Counted from the first letter of the stretch, positions 37,449-57,904 are shown. The stretch: DNA of 64,000 nucleotides from Aceticella autotrophica (GCF_017357865.1 NZ_CP060096.1:1537001-1601000); one strand, 5' to 3'. Program-made: numbers and translations. The notes: a model not told the origin generated them from the sequence alone.

Positions 37449-37495
37449 AATAATTTTCTACCAACTTAAGCCTAATTTTTTAAGAGGATTTACTC

Positions 37496-37584: not shown

Positions 37585-38478
37585 TTAAAGTTTTATTTTT
37601 TCTAATCTGCCTTTTGGACATATCAACATATGCTTTAAATCCATTTCGTCGTACCAATAACCTCGGCTGTTAATAAAACGCTTTTTAAATTGTTCTCCAC
37701 TTGGAAATAAAATAGCACCTATCAAATCAACACCTTCATCAAAAAGTGCCTTAGGATAGAATGTATTGGTAGGACCCATCATCATAACAAAGCGTGCATT
37801 TTTAGTAAACTCAAGAAGTGGCAAAACGGTGTCATTAGCTATGGTCATACCTGTCAATATTACAACATCAGCATTCTCTAAAACTTCCTTGCTCTTAGAA
37901 GATGGAAAAACTCTTACATTTGTATTCTCAGGTTTTGCTTTATATATTTCAAAATCACCTATTGGCTCTAACTCTAAAATGTCAACTTCTTTAACAAAAG
38001 TCGAAATATGTGCAACAAAACCATAAAAATATCCAACAAAAGCTACAACATCTTTCCTATCGATTAATCCTAAATCCAAAATAGCCGATAGGGCTGGTTT
38101 TGATAGCGTTTTTGCATCAAAACCATAGACTTTTAAAGTATTTTCATCCCATATAAATTTATGTGATAATGCTGCAATAATTGAAATTATTAAAGAAATG
38201 TCAAACATTCTCATATTGCCTTGTTCTAACCTGTTTAAAACTTCATAAGCATCAAGATTTATGACCTCTTTTAAAAAAGACAAATCGATTGGGACATCAA
38301 AACCATTGTTGCCCATTCCACAACCTACATACCCATCTTCACAAATTACATAGCTAAAAGTCCATGGCGTGAAAAGGCGTGTTGAACGGGTTACCATAAC
38401 ATCTGATAATTTGCCTTTAGCATCTAAAGCCCTTAGTTCATCAATGGTTCTCTTTATAATCTCATAACTCATTCTCAT
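37585..38478 (-). CDS. DUF4213/DUF364 protein (putative heavy-metal chelation)
   Basis: 297-residue protein with an N-terminal DUF4213-like part (SYVICEDGYVGCGMGNN) and a C-terminal Rossmann-like DUF364 domain (DVVILTGMTIANDTVLPLL, FVMMMGPTNTFYPKALFDEG). The DUF364 family is annotated as putative heavy-metal chelation and is often found beside metal-complex ABC transporters. Here it is the last gene of the unit operator A - flavin reductase - FepB-like binding protein. GGGAG precedes the ATG. Function unproven; note the alternative frame at its 3' end. Confidence 0.85.
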   Translation of the reverse strand: MRMSYEIIKRTIDELRALDAKGKLSDVMVTRSTRLFTPWTFSYVICEDGYVGCGMGNNGFDVPIDLSFLKEVINLDAYEVLNRLEQGNMRMFDISLIISIIAALSHKFIWDENTLKVYGFDAKTLSKPALSAILDLGLIDRKDVVAFVGYFYGFVAHISTFVKEVDILELEPIGDFEIYKAKPENTNVRVFPSSKSKEVLENADVVILTGMTIANDTVLPLLEFTKNARFVMMMGPTNTFYPKALFDEGVDLIGAILFPSGEQFKKRFINSRGYWYDEMDLKHMLICPKGRLEKIKL

Positions 38479-38506
38479 TAATTACTCCCTTTCAATCTAT
38501 TTATCT

Positions 38507-39613
38507 TTAACTGCCAAGATTCAATTTCTTAAATCCACTTATACTATTCACCATATCTTTATACAAAGGTTTACCCAAAAGAAACTTGTAAATATCATCA
38601 GCTTTTTGTTCCGGGTTAATATCTTTAAATTGTTCAGGAAATATCACTTTCCCATTCCAATATGCATCCGCTATTGCATTCTCAATGTTTACATCATAAC
38701 AAACATATGGTAACTGTGTATAAATTTGCCCTTCTTTAACTGCTTTTATAGATTGGTAAAACTGAGGATTTTTTTTATAATCGTCTTTCACTAAAGAAAG
38801 TCCAAATTCATCAATAAAAATGATGTCTGGATCCCAATTTAAAAGTTTTTCCTTATCAATTATGATGCTTCCTGTTTTACCAGTTTCATCAGCAACATTT
38901 TTGGCATTAATAAGATTTAAAGGTCTATACTTGCCTTGGGTACTCTCAATGCCATGTACTCCATAAAAACCTATTCCACTAATATAAACCTTAGGCTTTT
39001 TATTATCTGAAATTTTATTTGTTCTGCTACTCAAATCTTGTTCACATCTCTTAAGATAAGAAACTACTTCTTGCGTCCTTTTTTCTTTATCTATGATCCT
39101 ACCGATAATTTGCAATGATTTATATACATCTTCAGTAAATGCACATTTATCACCATATTTTAATGCCACAACTGGTATATGTGTTTGTGCTTGCAGTTTA
39201 TCCGGATCCATATCCCCATAATGGACATAAAAGATTACATCAGGTTTAAGTTTAATTATCTCTTCAGCATTTAAACTATTATATTTACCTAATTGCGGTA
39301 AATTTTTTAATTCTGGATGAGCCAAAAGATACGGTTTATAAGCATCAGAAAATTTGGACAAAGTTTCAATACCAACCACCTTGTCTAATCCATCCAGGTA
39401 AGAAATAAGCCGTGTAGCACTCTCATTAACTGATACTATTTTCTTGGCTGGAATAGGAACCTCAACCTGACGACCAATTACATCGGTAATAACAACTTTC
39501 TGAGGTTCTGAAGCCGATGATTTTGTCGTCTGGCTTGACTTATTAGCTCCACATCCAGATAATAAAGAAAGCAGTAAAACAAAAACCATCAAAAAGCAAA
39601 GTTTCTTTTTCAT
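38507..39613 (-). CDS. FepB/BtuF-type periplasmic-binding lipoprotein
   Basis: 368-residue substrate-binding lipoprotein for an iron-siderophore/cobalamin-type ABC importer (cluster with helical backbone, Peripla_BP_2). A lipoprotein signal peptide with lipobox LLSGC is followed by VVITDVIGRQVEVP, the family opening, and by KLKPDVIFYVHYG and later WDPDIIFIDEFG. No FecCD-type permease or ATPase gene is adjacent. The first 32 codons are identical to those of the unrelated family-5 binding protein at 46512-48116, because both lie in copies of the 882-bp cassette. Confidence 0.9.
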   Translation of the reverse strand: MKKKLCFLMVFVLLLSLLSGCGANKSSQTTKSSASEPQKVVITDVIGRQVEVPIPAKKIVSVNESATRLISYLDGLDKVVGIETLSKFSDAYKPYLLAHPELKNLPQLGKYNSLNAEEIIKLKPDVIFYVHYGDMDPDKLQAQTHIPVVALKYGDKCAFTEDVYKSLQIIGRIIDKEKRTQEVVSYLKRCEQDLSSRTNKISDNKKPKVYISGIGFYGVHGIESTQGKYRPLNLINAKNVADETGKTGSIIIDKEKLLNWDPDIIFIDEFGLSLVKDDYKKNPQFYQSIKAVKEGQIYTQLPYVCYDVNIENAIADAYWNGKVIFPEQFKDINPEQKADDIYKFLLGKPLYKDMVNSISGFKKLNLGS

Positions 39614-39671
39614 TTGACATAACCTCCCGCATATAATTAATTCTTTTAATGTTATTTAACCTCTTTAAACC

Positions 39672-40283
39672 TTATTTTTCTTCCTCAATAACAGAAGCCT
39701 GATCTTTATTGCTTAAAAACATTTCCGTATACTTCATTTCCTTTCCTGTAAAAACTGGATAGGTAAAGTGCATTCCTTTTTCTCTAAGCATCACTGATAA
39801 AGGCTTTGCCTTTTCATAATCCATTTCTCCATCTTTATTAAAGAAGGAGTCGTTTACCTCAAGATGAATTACCTTGCCGATTACAATGGAATAATTTTTC
39901 CTGCTTATCTCCTCTACCAATGAGCATTCTGCCCATGCTATGCAACCATCGATTCCAGGAGCTTTTACCTTTTGAGAAATACGTGGCTTTAAGCCTGCCT
40001 TTTCAAACTCATCAACATCCGGAGGATAATCCCGTGATGAAATCACAATAGCTTCAATCATATCTACAGTTGGTACATTGACTACAAATTCCCCTGTTTC
40101 GCGAATATTATTTAATGTGTCGCGTTTAATCCATGATGCAATAGCTATATCGTCAAGCGGTCTTAATACCGGCATCACACATGACCATGGAGCAGCATTC
40201 CTTACTCCATCCTTTCCAATAGTTGAAATCAGTACAACCGGAAGCGGCATTATCTGTTCTCTCTTACGTGGTTCAAGTATCAT
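39672..40283 (-). CDS. Flavin reductase-type FMN-binding protein, copy A
   Basis: 203-residue protein of the flavin reductase/FMN-binding split-barrel family (DIM6/NTAB type): VVLISTIGKDGVRNAAPWSC, GEFVVNVP and ECSLVEEISRKNYSIVIGKV are typical. In metal uptake such enzymes may reduce a metal complex to release the metal or supply reduced flavin; this is inference. It is the first gene behind operator A. AAAAAGGGGG precedes the ATG. Confidence 0.88.
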   Translation of the reverse strand: MILEPRKREQIMPLPVVLISTIGKDGVRNAAPWSCVMPVLRPLDDIAIASWIKRDTLNNIRETGEFVVNVPTVDMIEAIVISSRDYPPDVDEFEKAGLKPRISQKVKAPGIDGCIAWAECSLVEEISRKNYSIVIGKVIHLEVNDSFFNKDGEMDYEKAKPLSVMLREKGMHFTYPVFTGKEMKYTEMFLSNKDQASVIEEEK

Positions 40284-40328
40284 GATTTAACCCCCTTTTT
40301 ATAATACATGCTAAATTTTGCTCAGTTT

Positions 40329-40374
40329 ATGTTATGTTTATTATAATAGTAACACAATGTTAGACATGTGTCAA
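40329..40374 (-). promoter_or_regulatory. Promoter and palindromic operator A
   Basis: On the minus strand TTGACA (-35, 40369-40374) is followed after 17 bases by TACTAT; over and after this -10 box lies GTGTTAC-N13-ATAACAT (40329-40355). The same palindrome occurs at 48832, 55292 and 59340. It resembles NikR-type operators with seven-base arms separated by 13 bases, which is my inference. Confidence 0.7.
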
Positions 40375-40489
40375 GTATAAAATAATTATGATTTTTTGCT
40401 GATGAAAAAGTTTTTCAAATGCAGTTTACAATGAGTTCTAACCTGATTTTTTCTTTTTAAAAAACTATATGGTTCAGTAAAAATTTAAT

Positions 40490-41253
40490 TTATTTTGGTT
40501 TTATGCCCGTTACTATATACCGCTGGTAATTAAAAATCAATCGATATCGTAAAGGCATACCTTTTTTCTGTGCCTCAACAACCTTATTTAAAGGCTCAAC
40601 GCATACTTTTGTTAATCCTGCGCTCTCCATAAGTTGCATAATGTCATTTGGATTCGCTCCACCCATAAATGGAAGTTCCTTTTGAATTGCTTTTTCATAA
40701 CGTCCATGACCCTTCCACGGATTACGTCCTTCTATCAAAGCAACTAAGCAGTTGCCAAGCAAACGCCGCACTTTACTTAAGGCTCCGGCTCTATTCCATA
40801 TACCGTCGATTATGATTACCTTTCCTCCTGGGTTAAGCACCCGTACCCATTCCTTGAGTGCCACTTTCGGCTGGGGCAGCGTCCAAAGCAAGTGACGGTT
40901 GATAACCACATCAAAAGTTCCATTCTCAAATGGCAGCTTCTCTGCGTCCCCCAGGGAAAAATCAATCTTCATTCCAGCTTGTCGAGCTTTTTTTGCGCCT
41001 GCTTCAACATCTCTTGCGAAAGGTCCACACCGGTACATTGATGATCTAATTCAACAAGTAAGAAAGCCAAAAAACCCGTACCTGTACCCACATCCAAAAT
41101 TCGGCGTCTATCTTGTCCTACCAACTCCTTTAAGGTTTCCAACCATGCGGTTTTCTCATATTTACTTTTTAAACAATGACCGTATAGTTGGTCAAAAAGT
41201 GCAGCACTTTCATCCCAATTCCTGCTGATTTTTTCTTTTAAGTTCATATTCAT
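40490..41253 (-). pseudogene. SAM methyltransferase gene with a frameshift
   Basis: Class I methyltransferase (UbiE/Methyltransf_11 type) in two overlapping frames. The first part (from ATG 41253, MNMNLKEKISRNWDESAALF) has the SAM motif ILDVGTGTGFLAFLLVELDH and GVDLSQEML. The second resumes with MKIDFSLGDAEKLPFENGTF, VINRHLLWTLPQP and LNPGGKVIIIDG. The frame changes at an A7 run (complement at 40988-40994); one extra A would restore a single ORF of about 253 codons. It may be a true pseudogene, a sequencing error or ribosomal slippage. Last gene of the nik-type operon. Confidence 0.85.
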
Positions 41254-42203
41254 ATTAAAATTCCCCCTTCTTTTAAATAAGTACATAGGCACCTCACCTT
41301 ATGTCTTGAGTTAATATTAAGTAGCTCGGGCAATTGCTCTTTGCAGGAATTTTTCCTTATGGGGCAACGAGCGTAATATCGGCAACCTTCTATAATAGAA
41401 TTGCTATCATCTTCTATATCGAAGGTGTATAAATTGCTCGTCAGTTCTGCCGATTCAATGAGAAATTGTGTATATGGGTGTAATGGGTTGTTAAATAGTT
41501 CATTGGGTTCAGCCATCTCTATTATCTGCCCGGCATACATGATGGCAATACGATTACTCACTTTTCTTGCAACCTCCAAGTCATGAGTAATAAAGATGAT
41601 AGAAAGATCAAATTTTTTTTGTAAGTTCATCAGCAGATTCAGTATCTGTGCCTGAACAGACACATCCAGCATAGATGTGGGTTCATCCGCAACGATGATT
41701 TTAGGATTCAAAGATAGAACTCTTGCAATCATTACTCTTTGAAGCTCCCCACCGCTCAGCTCATGTGGATACCTGTCCAAATGATCCTCTTTCAAGCCTA
41801 CCATATTCAATAGTTCAAAAACCTTTTTCTTTTCATCTGCCCTGCTTTTTACCACTCGGTGTATCCTCATCGGTTCAACTATACTATCATAAACCTTCCA
41901 TCGCGGATCAAATGATACTTCTGGATGCTGTGGTATTAATTGCAGGTCTTTTCTAATGTTTTGGAGTTCTCTTTTTTTTACCTTTGTAAGCTCAACTCCA
42001 TCAAGAAATATCTGACCTTCAGTAGATTCAAGCAATAGAAGCAACATCTTGCCCAAGGTTGTCTTCCCTGAGCCCGACTCACCCACTAATGCTATAGTCT
42101 CATTTCTGCCGATTTCCAAATCTACACCATCAACAGCAACCAAAGATTTTTTTTGCCAAAATCCACTTTCAAACACCTTTTTTAACTGTACAGCTTTAAG
42201 CAT
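41250..42203 (-). CDS. ABC transporter ATP-binding protein, NikE/DppF/OppF type
   Basis: 317 residues with Walker A GESGSGKTTLGK, signature LSGGELQRVMIARV, Walker B IIVADEPTSMLDVS and switch FITHDLEVA. The C-terminal oligopeptide-type extension contains the cysteines CRYYARCPIRKNSC and CLC typical of this group (iron-sulfur or metal-binding). It pairs with the preceding ATPase gene, which it overlaps by eight bases. Nickel/peptide importers use such heterodimers. GAGGTG precedes the ATG. Confidence 0.93.
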   Translation of the reverse strand: MLKAVQLKKVFESGFWQKKSLVAVDGVDLEIGRNETIALVGESGSGKTTLGKMLLLLLESTEGQIFLDGVELTKVKKRELQNIRKDLQLIPQHPEVSFDPRWKVYDSIVEPMRIHRVVKSRADEKKKVFELLNMVGLKEDHLDRYPHELSGGELQRVMIARVLSLNPKIIVADEPTSMLDVSVQAQILNLLMNLQKKFDLSIIFITHDLEVARKVSNRIAIMYAGQIIEMAEPNELFNNPLHPYTQFLIESAELTSNLYTFDIEDDSNSIIEGCRYYARCPIRKNSCKEQLPELLNINSRHKVRCLCTYLKEGGILI

Positions 42204-43146
42204 AATGCCAGCACCTCACCATCGATCCATTTATTTTTAATAATGGTGGTTCCATATCTTTACACTTATCCATGGCCTCTTTACAGCGAGGATGAAAACG
42301 ACATCCACTTGGGGGATTGATCATACTGGGAATTTCCCCCGGTATACTTTTCATTCCCCTCGCTGGTAGAGATTCAAGCAGTGCTTTCCCATAGGGGTGT
42401 AGTGGCTCTTTGAAAAACATCTCTGACAAATTTATTTCTATAATCTGCCCACAGTACATAACAGCAATACGGTCACATAAGGCTTGGGCAAAAGATAAAT
42501 CATGTGTAATTAATAGAATGGAAAGGTCTTTGTTGTCATCCTTTACCTTCCTGAACATAAAGGCTACCTGTTTTTTTCGAAAGTTATCCAAACCCTTTGT
42601 TGGCTCATCAGCAATCAACAGCTTTGGTTTAGTGGAAGTACCCATGGCTACCATAGCTCTTTGCCTCATCCCGCCGCTATACTGGTATGGATATTGATCT
42701 ACCCGCTCCTCTGCAGGTTGGATGCCAAATAATTGCAATAATTCCACCACTTTTTTCCGTGCCTGAATTTTATCAAGAGACATATGCAAAACCATCGGTT
42801 CTGCTATCTGGAAACCTATTTTAAGGACCGGATTAAAAGACGCTGAAGGATTTTGAGGAATCCAAGCTATCTCTTTACCTCGAATTTTTCTCATGTCTTC
42901 CTCTGAATAATAGGTCAAATTCTTATCTGCAAACCATGTCTCTCCTTTGATTTTTGCATTTGATGGAAGCAATCTTAAGATGGATAACCCGAGTATAGAT
43001 TTGCCAGAACCGCTCTCCCCAATTATCCCTATAGTTTCACCTTCTAAAATTTCGAAATTTACTCCGTCAACCGCCTTGACTGACGAATTACCCAGATCGA
43101 ATATAATGTGCAAATCATTTATTCTTAGAATAGTTTGCTGACTCAT
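42196..43146 (-). CDS. ABC transporter ATP-binding protein, NikD/DppD/OppD type
   Basis: 316 residues with Walker A GESGSGKSILGL, signature YSGGMRQRAMVAMG, Walker B LLIADEPTKGLD and the C-terminal cysteine region ([18 protein letters not shown]). It begins at the ATGA overlapping the stop of a permease remnant (43144-43260), so its original partner permease has been replaced. Works with the NikE-type ATPase downstream. Confidence 0.93.
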   Translation of the reverse strand: MSQQTILRINDLHIIFDLGNSSVKAVDGVNFEILEGETIGIIGESGSGKSILGLSILRLLPSNAKIKGETWFADKNLTYYSEEDMRKIRGKEIAWIPQNPSASFNPVLKIGFQIAEPMVLHMSLDKIQARKKVVELLQLFGIQPAEERVDQYPYQYSGGMRQRAMVAMGTSTKPKLLIADEPTKGLDNFRKKQVAFMFRKVKDDNKDLSILLITHDLSFAQALCDRIAVMYCGQIIEINLSEMFFKEPLHPYGKALLESLPARGMKSIPGEIPSMINPPSGCRFHPRCKEAMDKCKDMEPPLLKINGSMVRCWHYA

Positions 43147-43260
43147 AGCGAAACAACCTTCCTTCTCAAACGTGGATCTAAAAGATCCCTCACTCCATCA
43201 CTTATCAAATTACATGAGAATATAAAAAATATTCCAAATAAAATTTGAACTTTTAAAATA
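43144..43260 (-). pseudogene. 3' end of a lost DppC/NikC-type permease gene
   Basis: The minus strand just upstream of the NikD-type gene is open and reads FIFSCNLISDGVRDLLDPRL then RRKVVSL and a TGA that overlaps the ATPase start. The N-L-x-x-DG-x-RD-x-LDP motif is the standard C-terminus of DppC-type permeases. The intact DppC-like gene upstream (43282-44118) has a different, shorter C-terminus, so this is a leftover from another transporter, marking a recombination joint. Confidence 0.8.
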
Positions 43261-43281
43261 CATAAAAATAAATAATACTTA

Positions 43282-44118
43282 TTAATAATTTTTATAAGAA
43301 TATTTTTCATTTTTTAATGTAGGGACTATTTTTTCTTCCAAACTATATGCCAATAAGGAAATTGCAACTGATATAATTGCAGTACATAATCCCGGTGGAA
43401 TTAACCACCACCACAATCCTAAAGCAAATGCTCCTCCCGTATAAGCATCATTTATCATCTGTCCCCAATTAATATTAGTTGGATCTCCAATACCTAAAAA
43501 TCCAAGCCCTACTCCCATTAACATATAACCTTGTACAGCAAAAATAAAATTAGCAATTGATAATGGTAGTATATTTGGTACTATATGTTTAATAATAATA
43601 TATAAATCACTGCCTCCTATAGCTTTAGTCATAAGTATAAATTCATAATTAACCAAAGCTAATACCTGTGATCGTATTATTCTTGCACATCTTGTCCATC
43701 CTAAAATACCCATTATTATAGAAACCCCAACTATATTTGGAGTAAAAAATAAACTAAGAAGAATCAAAAGAGGAAACATTGGAATAGTCATCTGGAAATC
43801 AATTAATTTTGTTATAATTACATCAATCGACTTACCATAGTATCCTGATATTGCACCCATTAAAGTACCTATACATGTTGATAAAAATCCTCCAATAACT
43901 CCCATTAACAATGTACCCCTTGTCCCATATAAAAGCTCACTAAAAATATCTTGACCTAAAGTATTAGTGCCAAGAAAATGCTCTGCATTAGGTCTTTCTA
44001 AAGGTACTCCTGTTACTGCAGTGGGATGATATGGTACTAACCATGGAGAAAAAATTGCAATGATTATGTAAAGAATCAGTAAACATAAACCTACCATAAA
44101 AGAATTATTTCTATACAT
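43282..44118 (-). CDS. ABC transporter permease, NikC/DppC type
   Basis: About 278-residue permease with the DppC-type N-terminal region (GVPLERPNAEHFLGTNTLGQDIFSELLYG), six hydrophobic segments and the EAA loop (MTKAIGGSDLYIIIKHIVPN). The usual C-terminal DG-x-RD-x-LDP motif is absent and the protein ends LKNEKYSYKNY. Start uncertain: ATG 44118 lies 12 bases after AAAGGA, while ATG 44139 and 44130 sit upstream of or against that site. Codon use is more AT-rich than in the neighbouring ATPase genes, consistent with a separate origin. Confidence 0.88.
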   Translation of the reverse strand: MYRNNSFMVGLCLLILYIIIAIFSPWLVPYHPTAVTGVPLERPNAEHFLGTNTLGQDIFSELLYGTRGTLLMGVIGGFLSTCIGTLMGAISGYYGKSIDVIITKLIDFQMTIPMFPLLILLSLFFTPNIVGVSIIMGILGWTRCARIIRSQVLALVNYEFILMTKAIGGSDLYIIIKHIVPNILPLSIANFIFAVQGYMLMGVGLGFLGIGDPTNINWGQMINDAYTGGAFALGLWWWLIPPGLCTAIISVAISLLAYSLEEKIVPTLKNEKYSYKNY

Positions 44119-44158
44119 TTTTATAATCATTCCTTTCATTTATGAAAAAATCAAAAAT

Positions 44159-45130
44159 TTAATTATCTTTAATACAAGGATTAATAAAAAGATATAAAAT
44201 ATCGGCGATGAAATTAGCTATTATAATTAGAAAAGTTTCTATTAGAAAAATTGCTTGTAATAAAGGAAAATCTCTTGCTTTTATTGCATCGAATGTAAGT
44301 AGTCCCATACCAGGCCATGAAAATATCGTTTCTATAAAAAGACTGCCAGTAAACAAATGTGCACACTCCAAAGAAATAACAGTTAACATAGGAAGTATTG
44401 CATTTTTTATGGCATGTAAATAAAGAATATAATTTTCAGGTAAACCTTTTGCTCTTGCTACTGTAATATAAGGTTCTTTAATTACTGAAAGCATTGAATT
44501 CCTCATTAAATAATAATGCCCAGGAATTGAACATAATGTTAAAGTTAAAATAGGTAAAAAAGCATGATACAAAATATCAAGATAATTAACTCCATACTTA
44601 AGTGCATTAACGTTAGTAAATCCGCCTAATGGAAAAATTTTTATATAATAACTGAATAATAAAATAAAAGTTATTGCCCACCAATAAGAAGGAATAGTTT
44701 TTATAAAAATCATAAAATTTGTAATAAATAAATCATTTCTTGAACCATTTTTCCATCCCATATATGCACCTACAATAATACCTACAAAAATAGATAACAT
44801 AGTAGATGGAAATAATATTATAAGCGTCCAGTTTAATTTTTCATTAATAATATTCAATACAGGTCTAGCATATTGTAAAGAATAACCCCAATTGCCATAA
44901 AAAATATTTTTAAGATAAATTATATATTGAACTATCAATGGTTTATCTAATCCAAACTTTTCTTTAAATAATACAGATACCTCCGGATTAACTTGGGCAA
45001 GATCTTTTAATAAATAATCGAGATAATTCCCTGGAAGCATATGTATTAAAACAAAGCTTATACTTATACTTATAAAAAAAATTATTATAGAAAAAAAACT
45101 TTTACAAAAAATATATTTTACTCTTTTCAT
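44159..45130 (-). CDS. ABC transporter permease, NikB/DppB type
   Basis: About 323 residues with the DppB pattern: an N-terminal membrane helix, LIHMLPGN, KEKFGLDKPLIVQYI, the EAA-loop region TVARAKGLPENYILYLHAIKNAILPML and ETIFSWPGMGLLTFDAI near the C-terminus. It pairs with the NikC-type gene downstream. The start is placed at ATG 45128-45130; AAGGAGG lies inside the longer frame (to 45157), though its spacing to this ATG is long. Confidence 0.9.
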   Translation of the reverse strand: MKRVKYIFCKSFFSIIIFFISISISFVLIHMLPGNYLDYLLKDLAQVNPEVSVLFKEKFGLDKPLIVQYIIYLKNIFYGNWGYSLQYARPVLNIINEKLNWTLIILFPSTMLSIFVGIIVGAYMGWKNGSRNDLFITNFMIFIKTIPSYWWAITFILLFSYYIKIFPLGGFTNVNALKYGVNYLDILYHAFLPILTLTLCSIPGHYYLMRNSMLSVIKEPYITVARAKGLPENYILYLHAIKNAILPMLTVISLECAHLFTGSLFIETIFSWPGMGLLTFDAIKARDFPLLQAIFLIETFLIIIANFIADILYLFINPCIKDN

Positions 45131-45217
45131 TAATAATATTATAACCTCCTTACTCAAATAAATAAATTTATCTTGTTAAAAATATTTTAAAATATTTTAT
45201 TTCAAGTATATAAGAAG

Positions 45218-45237
45218 CTCCCCTTGTTCAAGGAGAG
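45218..45237 (-). promoter_or_regulatory. Intercistronic hairpin between methyltransferase and permease genes
   Basis: CTCTCCTT/AAGGGGAG arms with one mismatch and a short loop, followed on the minus strand by CTTCTTAT. It may act as an mRNA-stability or partial termination site within the operon. Confidence 0.4.
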
Positions 45238-45273
45238 ATTTGTTCTGAATTAATAATTTAAACTTTTATATAT

Positions 45274-46314: not shown

Positions 46315-46372
46315 TTGGTTTTCCTCCAAGTATATTATATTTGTAATAAAGTTACATGGTTTATATCAAATC

Positions 46373-46444
46373 GGGAGTCAATATACCTAATAATATTTTA
46401 AAATAATTTTTCTATCTTCAGATATATTCCAATATTTGACTCCC
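46373..46444 (-). promoter_or_regulatory. Long inverted repeat between binding protein and methyltransferase genes
   Basis: GGGAGTCAAATAT and its complement ATATTGACTCCC enclose about 48 AT-rich bases in the intergenic space. It could be a processing or partial termination hairpin that raises binding protein expression over downstream genes. Confidence 0.5.
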
Positions 46445-46511
46445 ATATTATGCATATCTTAATTTAAATGAATTTATATGGCACATCTATAGAATTTAAA
46501 TTTTTATTTTA

Positions 46512-48116: not shown

Positions 48117-48174
48117 TTGACATAACCTCCCGCATATAATTAATTCTTTTAATGTTATTTAACCTCTTTAAACC

Positions 48175-48786: not shown

Positions 48787-48831
48787 GATTTAACCCCCTT
48801 TTTATAATACATGCTAAATTTTGCTCAGTTT

Positions 48832-48877
48832 ATGTTATGTTTATTATAATAGTAACACGATGTTAGACATGTGTCAA
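48832..48877 (-). promoter_or_regulatory. Promoter and palindromic operator B
   Basis: Copy of operator A: TTGACA at the distal end and GTGTTAC-N13-ATAACAT at 48832-48858. Drives flavin reductase copy B and the nik-type genes downstream. Confidence 0.7.
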
Positions 48878-49023
48878 GTATAAAATAATTATGATTTTTT
48901 ACCATATTCATTTTGATTGGAAAATGACCTGACTTAGATATAGAAATAATTAAACTTATTATTATAACAAAAAATTAAAGTTAATCTTAACTATTAAGCC
49001 TAATCTATTTTCATGTATTCAAT

Positions 49024-49056
49024 AAAGCAAAAGGAGGCGAGAATAAAATTGCCTCC
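49024..49056 (-). terminator. Terminator after binding protein 2
   Basis: GGAGGCAA/TCGCCTCC arms followed by TTTTGCTTT on the minus strand, 40 bases after the stop codon at 49097. Confidence 0.8.
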
Positions 49057-49096
49057 CCTATCTGAGTTAAAATAAAGGATTTGATACAATACAATT

Positions 49097-50638
49097 TTAT
49101 TTTATCCATGCCTTTTCTAAACTCGGTTTGAAAAATGGATCTAATTTTAAATTTTGTATTTCCTTTCTTGTCGCATATAAGCATACATCATTATAAATAG
49201 GAGAAAGTGGTACATCCTTTGCAACCAAACGCTGCAACTCATCGTAAAGTTCTTTTCTTTTTGATAATTCTGGCACAATGGCTGCCGCATCAATAATACG
49301 ATCGGCTTCTGGGTTATTGTAGCCGATGCCACGTTGTATATTCATCTGCCCTTTGGAATATATCCACCTTCCGAAGAAAAAGTCTGGATCTCCGGTCATC
49401 AACGTATAAGGAGTCAGGGTAAGGTCGTACTCTCCTTTCTTTAACGCCTCTTTCCAGGCGCCCATCTCCAGCATCTTCAGCTCAACTTCAAAACCGAGGG
49501 TTTTCAGCTCCGACTGCATTATTTCTGAAATCGCTTTATAAGGCCAACGATTAGCCAATGATGAATTAATAACAAAAACTGCTTTATGTGGTATCCCGCT
49601 TTTGGTATTATTCATAATTTCACTAGCCTTATTTTTATCATACCTCCAAAGTCCCCTAACCACCCACGTTTTAGCCAATGGTGTAAAGATAGTTTCTGCC
49701 GGTTCTCCATAACCCTCCATAACTTTATCAACAAGCTGTGAACGATCTATGGAAAAACTTACTGCCTGTCGAAGATTTACATCATTAAAGGGAGCCTTCT
49801 TATTGTTAAACAAAAGATAATGAGTGGTAGTTACTGGTCTTGAAAGCAGAACTAAGTTAGAATTATTTTTAATTATATTAGCCTGTTCAGGCAAAACACC
49901 TCCTACATCAGCTATTGCCTGAATCTCCCCAGTTTGTAAGGCTGAAAGTCGAGTAGTTGGATCTGGAATAATTTTAAATGTTACTTTCGACAACTTGACT
50001 TTGCCACCCCAATAATTATCGTTTCGAGTCACTGTTATTTTTTCTCCTTTTTTATAATCCTCAAATTTAAATGGACCAGTTCCATAAGGATGTACAATTT
50101 TGCCTTCTGAATCAAAACTTTGGGTACTAAAAATAGGGCATCCAAAATAGGCTACTTTAGCAGGAAATGCCGGTTCAGGTTTTTTAAAGATAAACCGTAC
50201 TTCATTATCATTAACTGCTTCTATCTTTTCCAAGTTTAAAAATGTTCCATAATCATCCAATTTAGGATGCTCTTTAAATCTCTTTACATTTTTAACAACT
50301 GTTTCAGCATTTAACAAGCTTCCATCGTGAAATTTTATACCTGAACGTATAGTAAATGTCCATACCTTGTTAGTATTATCGGGAAGAAATTTTTCAGCCA
50401 ACTGTGGTTTCGGCTCTAATTTTTCATTTAGATAAGTAAGGCTTTCCCATACATTTGTACTTCCATGAACAAAATCACTGCTGTCAGGACCATCATAAAA
50501 ATCTCTTCCAATACCTATAACTAATTCTTGAGGCTTTGAAGAAATCGTCCCTGTTTGTTTGGTACAACCTGAAAAAGAACCAGCAAAAACTATCAAGGCG
50601 ATTAGCCATATTAAAATGGATCTTGCTTTGTTAAACAT
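49097..50638 (-). CDS. Family-5 substrate-binding lipoprotein (NikA type) 2
   Basis: 513-residue SBP_bac_5 lipoprotein with lipobox SFSGC, the motif GIKFHDGSLLNAETVVKNVK, HPYGTGPFKFEDY and VNLRQAVSFSIDRSQLVDKV. The region around WESLTYLNEKLEPKPQLAEKF resembles nickel-binding NikA proteins more than dipeptide-binding ones, by my reading only. It appears to be transcribed after remnants at 50663-51255 and downstream of the DppF-type gene. GAAAGGAAGGA precedes the ATG. Confidence 0.92.
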   Translation of the reverse strand: MFNKARSILIWLIALIVFAGSFSGCTKQTGTISSKPQELVIGIGRDFYDGPDSSDFVHGSTNVWESLTYLNEKLEPKPQLAEKFLPDNTNKVWTFTIRSGIKFHDGSLLNAETVVKNVKRFKEHPKLDDYGTFLNLEKIEAVNDNEVRFIFKKPEPAFPAKVAYFGCPIFSTQSFDSEGKIVHPYGTGPFKFEDYKKGEKITVTRNDNYWGGKVKLSKVTFKIIPDPTTRLSALQTGEIQAIADVGGVLPEQANIIKNNSNLVLLSRPVTTTHYLLFNNKKAPFNDVNLRQAVSFSIDRSQLVDKVMEGYGEPAETIFTPLAKTWVVRGLWRYDKNKASEIMNNTKSGIPHKAVFVINSSLANRWPYKAISEIMQSELKTLGFEVELKMLEMGAWKEALKKGEYDLTLTPYTLMTGDPDFFFGRWIYSKGQMNIQRGIGYNNPEADRIIDAAAIVPELSKRKELYDELQRLVAKDVPLSPIYNDVCLYATRKEIQNLKLDPFFKPSLEKAWIK

Positions 50639-50662
50639 AAATATCCTTCCTTTCTCAATAAT

Positions 50663-50835: not shown

Positions 50836-50856
50836 TTTAAAGAGCTGTGTTCCAAT

Positions 50857-51260
50857 TCATCTCCTGTGGTATCTTTTATCTATAAAACATCTCCCTAACT
50901 CTGCTGTTGTTTTTAAGTTGTAAAACCCTTTCAGTGCCTTAATTCTATCGTCATATTGCCATACACCTATGGTTCCTTCAACAAAAGGCTTGCTGGTATT
51001 TATAATAACCTCATTATCAGAGGGTATTTCTACAGAACTAATTGGTATAGGCTTTGAATTAACGGCCAAACGATCTAAGACAAATTTAACCGCTTTTGAA
51101 TCCATATTTGTTCCATCATGGAACTTAACACCGGGACGCAATGTAAATTTCCATGAGGTTGGAGATTTTAATTCCCATGATGTGGCTAAACAGGGTTTAA
51201 GTTTTCCATCAAAATCAACATCAACAAGGGTTTCTAAAATACCCGCCCTCTGGTAGAAAT
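50857..51260 (-). pseudogene. Truncated family-5 substrate-binding protein gene
   Basis: An internal segment of an SBP_bac_5 gene: GILETLVDVDFDGKLKPCLA, SWKFTLRPGVKFHDGT, MDSKAVKFVLDRLAV and IGVWQYDDRIKALKGFYN. Signal peptide and C-terminal two thirds are absent; it stops at 50857 in sequence unrelated to the family. It shows that an additional transporter once stood here. Confidence 0.8.
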
Positions 51261-51377
51261 AAGCTGACTTTATAGACTTAATATGAAAAATAACTTATTT
51301 TTGTTAAATATTATCATTTATATCCTCCTTTTAAAATTTTACGTGATAAATGTACAATTAGTATAAGACTGAATTTC

Positions 51378-52337
51378 TTAACTTAGATGACATGCAACAA
51401 AATGCCCTTTCCTCACCTCCTTTAATGTAGGTTCATACCGACAGCAAACCTCTTTGGCTTTGGAACAACGAGGGTGAAATCTACAGCCTGTAGGCGGTTT
51501 TGACGCATCAGGAGGCTCACCCTCTAACAACTGTTTTTGTGTTGTTTTCTGCTTTGGATCAGGCTCCATTATTGCATTCAAAAGTGCTATAGTATATGGA
51601 TGGTATGCCTTTGATTCAAGGTCTTTTGTCGGCAATATCTCAACAATTTTACCAAGATACATCACTGCTACTCTATCTGACAAGTAAGTTACTGCAGCCA
51701 AGTCATGGGAAATAAAGAAATAAGACAAGCCCAACTGTTTTTTTAAGTCTCGAAACAGATTTAAAATTTGCGCACGTATGGAAACATCTAAACTGGAAAC
51801 AGGTTCATCACAAACTATAAGTTCCGGCTGCAGAGCCAGTGCACGAGCAATATTAATGCGCTGCCTCTGACCTCCGCTGAACTCATGAGGATATTGAAAT
51901 GCATGTTCTGCTTCTAAACCGACAAGCATTAATAGTTCACCTACACGTTCTCGTCGTTTTTCTCTTTCGATACCAAAATTAGATAAAGGTTCCTCAATGA
52001 TTTTCCCCACAGTCCTACGAGGATTAAGCGAGGAAAAAGAATCCTGAAAAATAATTTGAAAATGGCATCGCTGATTTCGTAGCCTTCTCCCTTTTAAACC
52101 AGTAATTTCTACACCATCAAATAAAATTTTACCATACGTAGGTTCCTCCAGCCGTATTATTAAACGCCCTAAGGTGCTTTTACCACAACCGCTTTCTCCT
52201 ACCAAGCCCAATGTCTCTCCTTTCTCCATAGAAAATGAAACATCATCTACCGCATGAATCTTCTTTTTTGCAGATGTGAAAATACCTTTCTTACGTTCGT
52301 AATTTTTTGTCAAATTTTTTACTTCTAAAAAACTCAA
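51378..52337 (-). CDS. ABC transporter ATP-binding protein, DppF/NikE type
   Basis: 319 residues with Walker [13 protein letters not shown], signature [14 protein letters not shown], Walker [15 protein letters not shown] and the C-terminal cysteine segment ([16 protein letters not shown]). The start is TTG at 52335-52337 with GGAGGTAAG upstream. Last gene of the second complete transporter set (54275-55210 onward). Confidence 0.94.
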
Positions 52338-52350
52338 TTTTTCTTACCTC

Positions 52351-53328
52351 CTAATATACGGCTTTTAAGAAAATCTTATGGCATGCTGCAAGATGACCTG
52401 ATTCGACCTCAAGCAGTTTTGGTTTTTCTCCTCTGCATTCCTTATCCGCTTTAGTACACCTTGGAAAGAATGCGCAATAACTCGGAAGATTTAAAAGTTT
52501 AGGAGGCTGACCATTAATCGGAATTAGTTTTTTCTTTCCTATCCGCGGCACAGAACAAAGCAATGCCTGAGTATATGGATGAACAGGATGTTCAAAAATC
52601 TCTGTTGCTAATCCATATTCAACAATAGAACCTGCATACATTACCGCCACCTCATCTGCCATTGCTGCTACAACTCCTAAGTCATGAGTAATGAGAATAA
52701 TTGCCATTCCTATCTCTTCTTGCAACCGTTTCATCTCCGATATGATCTGGGCTTGAAGTGTAACATCCAAAGCAGTGGTAGGTTCATCTGCAATCAAAAC
52801 TTTCGGACTCATTAAAAGTGCCATTCCCATCATTACACGCTGGCGCATACCTCCTGAAAGCTGAAAAGGATATTGTCGCATAAGATATTCTGGATCCGAC
52901 AATCCCATACGAAGAAGAATAGACGCTGACTGTAACTTTGCATCATTTAAAGATATGTTTCCGTGTGATATTAGGGTTTCCACAAGTTGTGTCCCAACTG
53001 TCAAAACAGGATTTAGAGAGGTTAAGGGATCTTGGAAAACCATTGCAATTTCCTTGCCTCGTATCTTTTGCAATTTATTAGATGGAAGTTTAAGTAAGTC
53101 ACAGCCTTCAAACCAAACTTCTCCTGAAACAATCTCCCCCGGTGGTTCAATCAGTTTTAATATGGATAGTGCTGTAATACTTTTGCCGCACCCGCTTTCA
53201 CCTACCAATCCTAAGGTTTTTCCAGCTTTCACTTTAAAAAATATATTATCTGCAGCTTTAATAATGCCATGTCTTGTTTTAAAGCAGGTAGTTAGATTAT
53301 TAACTTGTAATATAAATATATCAGTCAA
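52351..53328 (-). CDS. ABC transporter ATP-binding protein, DppD/NikD type
   Basis: 325 residues with Walker [13 protein letters not shown], signature [14 protein letters not shown], Walker [15 protein letters not shown] and the cysteine-rich end ([15 protein letters not shown]). The start is TTG at 53326-53328 behind GGAGATGATTTT. It forms a heterodimer with the DppF-type product downstream, 13 bases away. Confidence 0.94.
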
Positions 53329-53368
53329 AAAATCATCTCCCGATTTAATAATTCAAGCTAATATATGC

Positions 53369-54271
53369 TCAAAAAATAACTTCTTTCGGATCTAAAGCAT
53401 CTCTCAATCCATCTCCTAAAAAGTTAAATGCTAAAACCACTATCATAATACATATACCCGGATATATCATAAGATGCGGCGCTATTTCCATATAAGGGCG
53501 TGCATCATTCAGCATTGCTCCCCATTCTGGCTTAGGCGGCTGTGCACCAAGACCCAAAAAAGACAGTCCGGAAATCGTCAACATTAAACTTCCCATTTCC
53601 AGTGTAGCTAAGACAACAACAGGTGATAAAACATTAGGCAATATATGTCTTATTACTATCTTCAATTCATTTGTGCCAGAGGCTTCAGCCGCCAAGATAA
53701 ACTCCTTCTCCTTTATTGAAAGAACCATTCCACGTACGACCCTTGCATATCCAACCCACCATACCGCAATAACAGATATCATTACATTAAGAAGCCCCGG
53801 ACCGAGAATTCCTGCAATAACAAGTGCGAAGATAAGATTTGGGAAAGCCAGCAAGATATCAACAATCCTCATAATGATATTGTCCACCAATCCACCATAA
53901 TATCCCGCTATTATGCCAAGTGGAATACCAATTATCATAATAGCGAATAAAGCTAAAATAGAAGTTGTAAGAGAAACTCTTGCTCCATATATCAAGCGGG
54001 ATAAAAGACAGCGTCCTAAATGGTCGGTACCAAGAGGATATTGTGCACTTGCCGGTGCAAGGCGATGCTGAAGGTCCACCTTTGTTGGGTCGTTAGGTGC
54101 AATATCATGTGCAAAAACTGCCATTGTAACTACAAATATGATTATGATAAAACTTAAAACAGCCAATTTGTCTTTAAAAAGTCTGTTTACTGCATCAAGC
54201 ATTAAACCAGATATTCTTTTCCTTTTTCGAATTGTATCGTTTGCAGTAAAATTTTTATTCTTAGTAAACAT
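53369..54271 (-). CDS. ABC transporter permease, DppC/NikC type
   Basis: 300 residues with the DppC pattern: LQHRLAPASAQYPLGTDHLG, six membrane segments, the EAA loop (EASGTNELKIVIRHILPNVL) and the full C-terminal motif FNFLGDGLRDALDPKEV. This contrasts with the C-terminally different NikC at 43282. GGAGGAG precedes the ATG. Confidence 0.94.
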   Translation of the reverse strand: MFTKNKNFTANDTIRKRKRISGLMLDAVNRLFKDKLAVLSFIIIIFVVTMAVFAHDIAPNDPTKVDLQHRLAPASAQYPLGTDHLGRCLLSRLIYGARVSLTTSILALFAIMIIGIPLGIIAGYYGGLVDNIIMRIVDILLAFPNLIFALVIAGILGPGLLNVMISVIAVWWVGYARVVRGMVLSIKEKEFILAAEASGTNELKIVIRHILPNVLSPVVVLATLEMGSLMLTISGLSFLGLGAQPPKPEWGAMLNDARPYMEIAPHLMIYPGICIMIVVLAFNFLGDGLRDALDPKEVIF

Positions 54272-54274
54272 AAT

Positions 54275-55210
54275 TTAATCTCCTCCCAAACGAATGCGGG
54301 GATCAATAAAAAAATATGAAATATCAACAACTAAATTCATAACAACAAAAATAACCGCCATAAAAAGTGCATATCCTTGAATAACCGGATAATCCCTGTT
54401 AAATATAGAATCTACTGCAAATTTTCCTACACCAGGCCAGGCAAAAATCGTTTCAACAATTACCGCACCACCCAGTAAATGCCCAAAGCTCATGCCGAAA
54501 AGGGTTACAGCCGGTAAAAGAGCATTCTTTAATGCATGTCTTCCAATGATCCATTTTTCCAAAAGTCCTTTTGCCCGTGCCACCTTAATATAATCTTGTT
54601 TCATAACATCAAGCATTCCCGCTCTAAGTATGCGTGCATATACAGCAGACACTCCAAACCCTAATGTTATTGTCGGCAGCAAAAGATGTTGAATACCTCC
54701 CATACCCATTACAGGAAATAGCCTTAATTTCACAGCAAAAAAATAAATAAGCATAAGCCCCAACCAAAAACCGGGGATCGAAGCACCTAAAAGCGCAAAA
54801 ATACGACTTAAATGGTCAAGAAAATTATTACGATAAAGTGCGGAAATTATTCCAGACAAAAGTGCAATAAATATCACAAAAATCATAGCAGAACAAGCAA
54901 GTTCTAAAGTTGCCGGAAATCTGGAAAGAATTTCTTCAGTTACTGATTGACCGGTACGAAATGATTTGCCTAAATTACCATGTAATACTTTCCACAGCCA
55001 TCTCCCATACTGAATGTAAATAGGGTTATTTAAGCCCAGTTCTACCCTGAGGGCTTCTACAGCTTCCCTTGTAGGTTCCACTCCTCCCGAACGTAAAATC
55101 AATTCTGCCGGGTCTCCTGGTGCAAGATTGATTAATCCAAAGGTTATTAGAGATACTCCAAACATAACCGGAAACATATAAAGAAACCGTTTTGATATAT
55201 ATTGCCACAT
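54275..55210 (-). CDS. ABC transporter permease, DppB/NikB type
   Basis: 311 residues with LINLAPGDPAELILR, LRVELGLNNPIYIQYGRWL, the EAA loop YIKVARAKGLLEKWIIGRHA and ETIFAWPGVGKFAVDSIFNR. The start is ATG 55208-55210, eight bases after AAGGGG; GTG 55219 lies within that site. First gene of a four-gene dppBCDF-type operon behind operator E (55292-55342). Confidence 0.94.
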   Translation of the reverse strand: MWQYISKRFLYMFPVMFGVSLITFGLINLAPGDPAELILRSGGVEPTREAVEALRVELGLNNPIYIQYGRWLWKVLHGNLGKSFRTGQSVTEEILSRFPATLELACSAMIFVIFIALLSGIISALYRNNFLDHLSRIFALLGASIPGFWLGLMLIYFFAVKLRLFPVMGMGGIQHLLLPTITLGFGVSAVYARILRAGMLDVMKQDYIKVARAKGLLEKWIIGRHALKNALLPAVTLFGMSFGHLLGGAVIVETIFAWPGVGKFAVDSIFNRDYPVIQGYALFMAVIFVVMNLVVDISYFFIDPRIRLGGD

Positions 55211-55291
55211 TAAAAGCACCCCTTACATCAAAAAGATCTGATTTTGTAAATACAAATAAAGGCTTAATATTATTTTTCAATAATAGATGAA

Positions 55292-55342
55292 ATGTTATGT
55301 TCATTATAAAAATAACATAATATAATATAAGAAATGTGTCAA
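55292..55342 (-). promoter_or_regulatory. Promoter and perfect palindromic operator E
   Basis: TTGACA (55337-55342 on the minus strand) followed downstream by the exact inverted repeat ATGTTAT-N13-ATAACAT (55292-55318). Arms are the same as in operators A-C but the distance from the -35 box is four to five bases longer. It controls the dppBCDF-type operon. Confidence 0.72.
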
Positions 55343-55370
55343 GTCTACTAACTTCTTAAGAATAACCTCC

Positions 55371-56309
55371 TTAAATACCATCTACCTCGTTTCTCCATCT
55401 CTCATCCACTCTCCACAGAATCATCCCTAAGCGCACTCTATCCTTTAGCTGGAAAACTCCATTAGTTGCATGTTGCTTTATATAATTAGCAATCTTATCT
55501 TTAATCTCGGAAGTGAGTTCTACATAAAACTGAAAGCGATTTTCTAAATCAACAATTGCTTCGTCTACAGAAAAATCCTCTTTGTCCCACTCATCTGCCC
55601 ATAACTGAACCGAAGGAAAATAACCTGATGTATAAAGGTAATTAAAGGGATAAGAAATATCATACGGCGAAAGGGGCGGTTCCTCTCCAAAAATATCGCG
55701 CCAGAGTTCCTCCCACGTCGGATACCACCGTTGCCCGGCAAGGTCGCACAAAAAACACCACTTGTGGGAGCAGGTCATCATTTTTACAAGGGTTTCCACA
55801 TCCTTCACCCCCGGCGTAAGGGAAGCAAAAACCAGATCGAACCTGCCAGCCAGACCTTCTGCCACCGGGTCAACCTTCTCCCACTCCCGGTTCAGAAATT
55901 GAACGTTTGTCAGGCCTTCTGCCTCCACCTTCTTTTGCAAGGTAGTCAGCACCGCCGGGGCCGGTTCCAGAGCCACCACCTTTTTTACCCTCCGGGCCAG
56001 AGGTATGGTAAAAGTACCCGCTCCGGCACCGATGTCCAGCACCTCCAATTGCGAGTGCAGTACTCCCTGTCGCTCGAGCCAGGCAAGTACCCGGGCAACA
56101 CGCCCTCCAGCGTTCGCCTGATCAGTCCAGCGTTCAACCTGCCCGGCCAGCCGGTTCCAGCATTCTACAGGGTTCAAGTCAGGACGTCGCCTGGCAGATA
56201 GGGAGTTACGATGAACCGCGTTCCAGGCATCTATCCAAAAATGAGGATTTTTTAACAAACATCCTGGGCAATTTAAGAATTTCCCTTCCAAACTCGGCTT
56301 TTCTGTCAT
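55371..56309 (-). CDS. Class I SAM methyltransferase, GC-rich, beside binding protein 3
   Basis: 312-residue methyltransferase with SAM motif LEVLDIGAGAGTFTIPLARR and ALEPAPAVLTTLQKK, an N-terminal Cys pair (NCPGCLLKNPHFW) and a long C-terminal extension (WRDIFGEEPPLSPYDISYPF). The gene has visibly higher GC than its neighbours (Gly/Ala/Arg codons with G or C thirds), suggesting transfer from a GC-richer bacterium. It starts 27 bases after the binding protein gene upstream. ATG 56309 follows AAAAGGAGGAG. Substrate unknown. Confidence 0.88.
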   Translation of the reverse strand: MTEKPSLEGKFLNCPGCLLKNPHFWIDAWNAVHRNSLSARRRPDLNPVECWNRLAGQVERWTDQANAGGRVARVLAWLERQGVLHSQLEVLDIGAGAGTFTIPLARRVKKVVALEPAPAVLTTLQKKVEAEGLTNVQFLNREWEKVDPVAEGLAGRFDLVFASLTPGVKDVETLVKMMTCSHKWCFLCDLAGQRWYPTWEELWRDIFGEEPPLSPYDISYPFNYLYTSGYFPSVQLWADEWDKEDFSVDEAIVDLENRFQFYVELTSEIKDKIANYIKQHATNGVFQLKDRVRLGMILWRVDERWRNEVDGI

Positions 56310-56335
56310 CGTAAAGCTCCTCCTTTTTAAATCTT

Positions 56336-57904
56336 CTATTCTTCTATATAGACACCATCCCACCTTGTGTTAATTCCAGAAGGATGGGGCGTAAGTCCCT
56401 TAATCTTTTTCTTCGCAGCGTAAATTGTGTATAGGGAGGCAAGGGGTACAGCAGTCGTTTCTTCATCAATGAGCACATGCATAGCTTCCGCCGTCAGTCG
56501 TGCAGATTCTCGGATATCAGGAGTATTGCGAGCTTCCTCTAAGAGGCGGTCAAACTTCTCGCCCGGCCAAAATGCTTTGTTATAGTTCTCCTCATAATAC
56601 CCTCTGCTATAGAAAAGAAGCTGCGGCAAGAAAGTAGGGTCACCGTCATTCTGGCTGCCTCGCTCCAGCCAGAGATCCCCTTCTCCCTTTTTCAATTTAT
56701 CGGAGTAAAGCCCGCGATCTGCAACTTCTACCACCTTAACTGCAATGCCGACTCCCTTAAGCTGCTGTTGCAAGATTTCCGGCAGGGGTTTCAGCACGCT
56801 GGCAGATGGAAAACCGGAAACAAGGGTGAGTTCCAAGCGCCGCCCGTCCTTAATCCTGACGCCGTCAGGGCCGGGTTTCCATCCAGCCTGTTCCAGGAGA
56901 TTTTTGGCCCTTTCTGGGTTGTAGGTAAATCCGTTGACTAAACCCTTAAACTCCCTCAAGATATCAGGAGGAATTATGGTCTGACTGCTAACAGCATTAT
57001 CTTCCCATACCTTCTGGATAATAGCCTCGCGGTCGATGGCCCAGCCAATGGCCTGCCGTATCCTTTTGTCCTGCAAAATGTCGTAAGGCTGTTTCCCGTT
57101 AACCATAAGGTAAAGAGCCACATAAGCACCGGTTTTTCCGCGCAACACCTGAATCCCTTGGGTTGTCTTAAGTTGTCCAATCATTTCACGAGGAATTTCT
57201 GTAATAACATCAATTTCACCTGCCTGCAGGGCAAGGAGCCGGCTGTTGTGGTCGGGAATGAATTTAAAAACAATCTTATTCACTTTTGCCGGTTCCCCCC
57301 AATAATTAGGATTACGCTCAACAACCAGCTCTTTATCTTGCTCGTACCTGACAAAACGGAAGGGACCGGTACCAATAGGTTTCTGGATATCTTCATTTTC
57401 TTTGATGCATATGGCAATAGTTGGAAGAGCCAGGATTTCTGGAACGCGCATATTAGGCTCTGTGGTTACAATGTCCACTGTATAATCGTCAATTATCTTG
57501 ACAGCATCTTCTTTGATTTTTAACATGGATTTTTCACTCGAGAGAATACCTTTTTCCAAGGTGTACTTTACAGCTGAAGCATTAAAGTCCTTACCGTTAT
57601 GGAACTTTATACCTTTGCGCAGGTAAAAGCGCCAGGTGTTATTCCCCTTATATTCCCATTTGGTGGCCAAAAGTGGCTCCAATTGATACTCAGGCGTTAG
57701 TCTAATTAACGGCTCGCAAATATTGGCATTTAGCGGATAGATTCCCAACTTGCTGTTCCTTTGGCTATAACCATCAGATCCAACGCCCACAACTAATTCC
57801 TTTTTACTTAACTGACCTTCTCTTTGTTGCCTGCCACAACCCGCAGACCCGGCAAATAACATTATGATGACCAAGAAAGATACTATTTGCCTTAAATATT
57901 TCAC
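56336..57904 (-). CDS. Family-5 substrate-binding lipoprotein (NikA type) 3
   Basis: 522-residue SBP_bac_5 lipoprotein with lipobox AGSAGC, GIKFHNGKDFNASAVKYTLEK, IGTGPFRFVRYEQDKE and IRQAIGWAIDREAIIQKVWE. NikA-like wording (VGVGSDGYSQRNSKLGIYPL and PNMRVPEILALPT) fits nickel- or metallophore-binding members, by inference. GC content is raised like that of the methyltransferase downstream, so both probably arrived together. The start is GTG at 57902-57904 behind AAAGGAGTG. Confidence 0.92.
   Translation of the reverse strand: MKYLRQIVSFLVIIMLFAGSAGCGRQQREGQLSKKELVVGVGSDGYSQRNSKLGIYPLNANICEPLIRLTPEYQLEPLLATKWEYKGNNTWRFYLRKGIKFHNGKDFNASAVKYTLEKGILSSEKSMLKIKEDAVKIIDDYTVDIVTTEPNMRVPEILALPTIAICIKENEDIQKPIGTGPFRFVRYEQDKELVVERNPNYWGEPAKVNKIVFKFIPDHNSRLLALQAGEIDVITEIPREMIGQLKTTQGIQVLRGKTGAYVALYLMVNGKQPYDILQDKRIRQAIGWAIDREAIIQKVWEDNAVSSQTIIPPDILREFKGLVNGFTYNPERAKNLLEQAGWKPGPDGVRIKDGRRLELTLVSGFPSASVLKPLPEILQQQLKGVGIAVKVVEVADRGLYSDKLKKGEGDLWLERGSQNDGDPTFLPQLLFYSRGYYEENYNKAFWPGEKFDRLLEEARNTPDIRESARLTAEAMHVLIDEETTAVPLASLYTIYAAKKKIKGLTPHPSGINTRWDGVYIEE

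Follow-up and report, generated by a model that had tools for sequence, protein, structure and literature searches.

A gene island of Aceticella autotrophica combines two importers of the Nik/Opp type with three methyltransferases, flavin-reductase-like proteins and a DUF364 protein, which raises the question of which metal is imported and what methylation contributes to uptake. Nickel limits CO dehydrogenase and methanogenesis; to our knowledge, nickel acquisition by acetogens, sulfate reducers and methanogens in sulfide-rich, nickel-poor habitats is poorly known. We analysed a window of 64,000 nucleotides (positions 1537001–1601000 of the closed, 2.27-Mb genome), from whose first nucleotide coordinates are counted unless a genome position or locus is given. 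Our preferred reading, to which we assign a probability of about 0.7, is that the island is a segment of a nickel-starvation regulon, that its binding proteins and importer cores bring in nickel, and that one methyltransferase, MTA, would act on the organic partner of nickel.

Gene content and transcription units

All genes named in an initial annotation, which had described a candidate metal-uptake island, are present with Pfam and NCBIfam support and lie on the minus strand, as do the operators, gene remnants, cassettes and inverted repeat described below. There are, as proposed, two complete importer cores. In core 1 (51378–55219), the permeases pass NCBIfam nickel cut-offs. Specifically, NikB1 (54275–55219) scores 437 bits against NF045470 (cut-off 350) and 386 bits against NF045469 (cut-off 380) and is below the cut-off of TIGR02789, while NikC1 (53369–54271) scores 366 bits against TIGR02790 (cut-off 358) and also passes NF045473 and NF045474. 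Domain matches identify a NikD1/OppD-type ATPase (52351–53328) and a NikE1/OppF-type ATPase (51378–52337) in the same core. Core 2 (41250–45157), composed of the NikB2/OppB-type (44159–45157) and NikC2/OppC-type (43282–44139) permeases and the NikD2/OppD-type (42196–43146) and NikE2/OppF-type (41250–42203) ATPases, belongs to the same family by its domain matches and passes none of the NCBIfam nickel-permease cut-offs. The NikABCDE-type make-up, SBP_bac_5 with two BPD_transp_1 permeases and two oligo_HPY ATPases, is present in one unit.

The binding proteins are of two fold families, as had been claimed: three intact SBP_bac_5 lipoproteins of NikA or NikA/Opp type (46512–48116, 49097–50638, and 56336–57904, the last with a GC content of 0.46) and one Peripla_BP_2 lipoprotein (38507–39613). 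The best NCBIfam neighbours of the three SBP_bac_5 proteins are NikA, Opp5A and CntA, none over its cut-off; against the NikA model TIGR02294 (cut-off 393 bits) they reach 191–208 bits. Two further binding-protein genes have decayed: 50986–51267 retains N-terminal sequence of a NikA-like gene (tblastn E 4e-13), and 58045–58455 retains C-terminal sequence of a family-5 solute-binding protein, with no Pfam match but with a phmmer match (E 4e-7) to a NikA-like protein from locus L065. The closest solved relative of the Peripla_BP_2 protein is 2etv, and there is weaker similarity to HI_1472 (3psa), which we take to be a molybdate-binding protein. The DUF364 protein (37585–38478; PF04016, E 7e-24, 84.5 bits against a cut-off of 23), from a family with a putative role in chelating heavy metals, is encoded by the last gene of its transcription unit.

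The three methyltransferases are likewise all present, but the third is not intact. MTA (55371–56363), a class I SAM-dependent methyltransferase of 330 residues, has its start overlapped by the binding-protein gene at 56336–57904, and MTB (45274–46329) consists of Methyltransf_2 and a dimerisation domain (Pfam/NCBIfam). MTC (40490–41292), which is UbiE/BioC-like, is split by a −1 frame shift over two overlapping ORFs (40969–41292 and 40490–41038) joined at C-AAA-AAA-AG, an A7 run near 40985–41008. Its homologues in other genomes (L047, L066, L068, L076) are in a single frame.

The two flavin-reductase-like FMN-binding proteins (39672–40283 and 48175–48786, both Flavin_Reduct in Pfam) are duplicates. 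Each sits in a cassette (39516–40397 and 48019–48900) that spans promoter and operator, the flavin reductase gene and the start of the following lipoprotein gene (33 codons, including the signal peptide), and the cassettes are 99.7% identical over 882 bp; judging from this identity, the gene pair is a recent duplication. Because the cassette is repeated near-exactly and fused to different secreted proteins, the Peripla_BP_2 protein and the family-5 binding protein at 46512–48116 have the same signal peptide. In addition, a 9.3-kb piece of the island (39561–48898) recurs at genome positions 1940704–1950041 with 99.7% identity; MTC is split there too, and the cassette is joined to a Cu_amine_oxidN1-FmdE protein.

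Operators and gene order predict four transcription units. The unit from the operator at 59340 would contain the C-terminal binding-protein remnant, a NikA-type protein and MTA, and the unit from 55292 the NikBCDE genes of core 1, the N-terminal remnant and a NikA-type protein. The operator at 48832 would serve flavin reductase, a NikA-type protein, MTB, the NikBCDE genes of core 2 and MTC, and that at 40329 would serve flavin reductase, the Peripla_BP_2 protein and DUF364. The last unit would end at an inverted repeat 3′ of DUF364 (37388–37450; 31 bp, 94% complementary), a likely terminator. An MFS transporter gene (35441–36892) adjoins the island on the far side of this repeat and has a MerR neighbour of its own.

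NikR-type operators

The exact motif TGTTAY-N13-RTAACA occurs 11 times in the whole 2.27-Mb genome. Four of these sites (40330, 48833, 55293 and 59341) are in the island and two in its partial copy, making six of the 11. The shared operators of the initial annotation are thus found: those at 40329–40355, 48832–48858 and 59340–59366 are mutual copies, and that at 55292–55318 has diverged. Specifically, the operators at 40329 and 48832 have the same sequence, ATGTTATGTTTATTATAATAGTAACAC, with 12 of 14 consensus positions. The operator at 59340, ATGTTATGTTTATTATAAAAATAACAC, matches 11 of the 14 positions of GTGTTAC-N13-GTAACAC and is located upstream of the decayed binding-protein gene and the NikA/MTA pair; its region is 97% identical over 90 bp to the promoter at 40306–40395. 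The operator at 55292, ATGTTAT-N13-ATAACAT, lies over the −10 region upstream of NikB1.

In the direction of transcription, TTGACA is followed by about 14 bases and then by the site, which covers the −10 box. The same TTGACA-N14-operator geometry precedes nikR (L043, 8036–8062), of which the genome has one gene (E 9e-33), and the gene for a CobN-like protein (L042, 8565–8591). The NikR signal of delta-proteobacteria is GTGTTAC-N13/14-GTAACAC (PMC545781); the Aceticella operators match it at 10–12 of 14 positions with a spacing of exactly 13, and their half-sites are often ATGTTAT, two changes from that consensus. Because the site geometry is shared with nikR and the published consensus is resembled, autoregulation of nikR together with control of the island by NikR is the simplest reading. 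NikR is predicted to bind the operators, and we consider it very likely that this is a nickel-import island under NikR.

Parts of the site region, 43–56 bp long, recur beside a DDE transposase element, which could mean that the operators derive from IS ends. We rejected this origin for two reasons: the flanking sequence is a direct repeat of 126 bp (59351–59476 and 61458–61583), which we take to be a target duplication, and sites of this kind are also found ahead of nikR, CobN and the MTA genes of other organisms.

The alternative that the binding proteins import peptides, molybdate or tungstate under a non-NikR regulator, which the weak resemblance of the Peripla_BP_2 protein to HI_1472 and the tie of DUF364 to molybdate and tungstate genes (PMC2954201) would favour, is very improbable given that nikR is preceded by the same site geometry and that sites in other genomes are found upstream of MTA and next to nikR and CbiM/NikM-like genes.

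The MTA family and its neighbourhoods

MTA carries the SAM motif LDIGxGxG of a Rossmann fold, in which G112 and G116 are invariant and D110 is near-invariant, and its structural model (pLDDT 90.7) has the class I methyltransferase fold. The nearest folds are small-molecule methyltransferases, including BioC, S-methyltransferases and ChlM. Since the TM-scores are about 0.4–0.6, the substrate cannot be read from the fold. The idea of MTA as a nicotianamine-synthase-like enzyme gains no support, with no such fold among the best 50 structural matches.

A profile of MTA retrieved 80 loci, of which the 77 with a recognisable MTA gene were used for neighbour counts. These loci span clostridia, sulfate reducers, spirochaetes and methanogens, and 35 of the 77 have a gene for NikB, NikC or fused NikDE no more than 6 kb from the MTA relative. 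The initial annotation would have been refuted by methyltransferases scattered away from such transporters; for the MTA family this was not seen: nickel-importer genes occur at 0.23 per kb within 2 kb of MTA and at 0.011 per kb at 8–10 kb, a 20-fold drop. The exception is Moorella, whose MTA orthologues occupy a conserved locus that has no importers and lies beside a peptidase-like gene and an apparent alaS. Further neighbours of MTA include FmdE (PF02663), FecC, FecE and Peripla_BP_2 proteins, CooC-like ATPases, DUF4198 proteins and CobN-like proteins. No related methyltransferase locus contains DUF364, whose status as a conserved partner is therefore not upheld. In the open-access literature we found no published methyltransferase linked to a nickel importer.

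The 80 loci contain five sites that agree with the NikR consensus in no fewer than 13 of its 14 positions, and three of them are directly upstream of MTA. By comparison, 120 permuted motifs gave a mean of 0.12 such sites in the same loci, with none upstream of MTA. Specifically, in Natroniella (L076) nikR belongs to a cluster with Nik, MTA and Fec genes, and in L083 a near-consensus NikR site lies between MTA and CbiM/NikM-like transporter genes, which were named from reading the sequence.

Co-occurrence was assessed in 300 genomes of the phylum, of which 55 encode MTA, 127 encode nickel CO dehydrogenase and 38 give strong matches to NikR. CO dehydrogenase is found in 45 of the 55 genomes with MTA and in 82 of the 245 others, an association with an odds ratio of 8.9 and p 7e-11 when kinship is ignored. 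No such association between MTA and NikR is seen in the 300 genomes (6 of 55 with MTA versus 32 of 245, p 0.82), so control of MTA by NikR is not universal. The genome of A. autotrophica itself encodes one hydrogenase-like protein and two nickel CO dehydrogenases, one of them with adjoining CooC- and HypB-like genes. The metal-uptake role assigned initially can thereby be narrowed: the NikR-type operators, the same kind of site before nikR, the two CO dehydrogenases and the MTA neighbourhoods indicate nickel as the most likely metal.

Role of the island and alternative explanations

We propose that, when nickel is scarce, NikR would leave the four operators overlapping the −10 boxes and the four transcription units would be made. 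Nickel, probably chelated, would then be bound by the binding proteins and brought in through the two Nik/Opp cores to supply CO dehydrogenase and the hydrogenase-like protein. MTA, a predicted cytoplasmic small-molecule methyltransferase, would take the organic partner of nickel as its substrate, either finishing a chelator or processing the imported complex; for this part of the proposal we see about even odds. In the initial annotation, the imported metal complex would be methylated or methylatable, and reduction dependent on FMN, together with methylation, may release, trap or detoxify it. The linkage of MTA to nickel importers across distant phyla suggests that a chemical step of uptake is missing from the Nik and Nik/Cbi ECF models, and it offers both a target for deletion and a metabolite to seek.

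One alternative is unlikely, though it has several points to its credit: the importers would be ordinary ones for nickel or peptides, and the methyltransferases, flavin reductases and DUF364 would be passengers with tasks in other processes, such as CO dehydrogenase or cobamide metabolism. In its favour, MTA follows CO dehydrogenase more closely than it does NikR, the Moorella copies sit elsewhere, DUF364 and Peripla_BP_2 have no Fec permease with them in the island, and MTC is frame-shifted. However, in many distant phyla MTA is a direct neighbour of importer genes, and it has NikR-type sites of its own.

We are more doubtful of a route in which the methyltransferases produce a small, methylated nickelophore for export and later re-uptake, following the logic of staphylopine with different enzymes. 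The fold of MTA, its retention beside SBP, permease and ATPase genes, and the adjoining MFS transporter agree with such a route. The staphylococcal Cnt system likewise has a Nik/Opp-family importer beside biosynthetic-looking enzymes, but the island enzymes are methyltransferases, with no recognised homologue of CntK, CntL or CntM in the island. The initial annotation had reported no known metallophore synthase, and this holds: there is no nicotianamine-synthase-like match in Pfam or NCBIfam, the best 50 structural matches to MTA give none either, and the island has no NRPS or opine dehydrogenase. The MFS gene, moreover, is separated from the island by the inverted repeat and is paired with a MerR neighbour of its own.

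A further possibility, which we rate lower still, is that nickel is scavenged from nickel tetrapyrroles such as F430 debris, through Dpp/Fec-type import, de-metallation by a CobN-like, NikR-linked protein that receives electrons from the flavin protein, and methylation of the freed macrocycle or carboxylates. MTA is accompanied by CobN-like genes in L042, L045, L065, L068 and L090, and by a fragment of one in L083. In L042, a paralogous locus of the A. autotrophica genome, MTA is flanked on one side by a CooC-like ATPase and on the other by a CobN-like protein, which has the motif HGTHG and resembles CobN, ChlH and HmuS. HmuS is a CobN-like heme de-chelatase that takes iron out of heme, and CobN-annotated groups with no assigned function have been noted (PMC12583661). 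In another report, CobN1 and NikR1 of Methanothermobacter marburgensis rise only under nickel limitation (PMC12350162). Against this scheme, CobN is outside the window and within 6 kb of MTA in only 4 of 77 loci, and CobN-like proteins may work in the opposite direction, inserting metal.

Returning to nickel import with MTA acting on the partner of nickel, three known systems offer points of comparison. The island resembles NikABCDE/NikR in having SBP_bac_5, two permeases and two ATPases, an operator that overlaps the promoter, and a core 1 that passes nickel-permease cut-offs; unlike it, the island has several binding proteins per core, linked methyltransferases, a flavin reductase, and an operator of the GTGTTAC type instead of the GTATGA type of E. 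coli. The HmuS system of Bacteroides, whose hallmark is a methionine-rich insertion, shares a CobN-like protein in metal-starvation loci, here in L042, but regulation here is of nickel type and CobN is encoded elsewhere. The nickel-limitation proteins of M. marburgensis share the response of a CobN-like protein and NikR; that organism is archaeal, and the accessible text of the report mentions no linked small-molecule methyltransferase. By analogy with these two cases and from the context of L042, processing of a nickel complex is plausible. A wider scheme is speculative, and we would not bet on it: anaerobes that need nickel for CO dehydrogenase might share a pathway in which a nickel macrocycle or nickelophore, imported by Nik/Opp or Fec, is processed by MTA together with a CobN-like (de)chelatase and an FmdE-like protein.

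MTA and its NikA differ in composition from the rest of the island, with GC3 near 0.48 compared with 0.14–0.37 for the other intact genes, and clear MTA matches are absent from most relatives of the same family. This contrast and patchy occurrence suggest that the two genes were recently acquired.

Split methyltransferase gene

The UbiE/BioC-like methyltransferase gene of the island (MTC, window 40490-41292, minus strand) is split by C-AAA-AAA-AG, with an A7 run near 40985-40995, and a second genomic copy, at 16633-17435 of L040, another stretch of this genome, carries an identical split. The split site includes A-AAA-AAG, a heptamer known from -1 frameshifting. This heptamer lies in frame 0. 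The downstream frame is open up to its end in both genomic copies, which makes read-through of MTC by slippage possible.

Duplicated cassette and DDE transposase elements

The cassette comprising promoter/operator, flavin reductase gene and signal peptide of the next gene occurs at window 39516-40397 and 48019-48900, and is reused with different secreted proteins downstream of each copy. Part of the island recurs, nearly identical over 9.3 kb, at another place in the genome (1940704-1950041, L040/L041). The DDE transposase element of the window (59477-61457) is located inside a NikR-type promoter, with a predicted NikR site on the -10 region, and is flanked on both sides by a 126-bp perfect direct repeat (59351-59476 and 61458-61583). 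A second copy of the element, at genome position 1937070, likewise abuts a NikR-type promoter half.

Paralogous nickel-type locus

A paralogous nickel-type locus (L042, genome 1040001-1056000) contains a paralogue of the island methyltransferase MTA, transport genes (two Peripla_BP_2, FecC/FecE), and genes for CobN-like proteins, a secreted CobN fragment, a flavin reductase, a TrmO-like protein, a CooC-like ATPase and a protein of MotA/TolQ-like appearance.

Neighbouring features of the window

Directly downstream of the island are an MFS transporter, possibly an exporter, and a MerR regulator (35441-37319). A perfect 44-bp palindrome (35422-35465; 22+22 bp, no spacer) is placed between convergent purL-like and MFS genes. 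A tRNA-Sec gene is present at 26200-26295, so this genome probably makes selenoproteins. A 748-bp direct repeat (4807-5552 and 6539-7284, copies 97.7% identical) lies near a cobalamin riboswitch (7447-7622).
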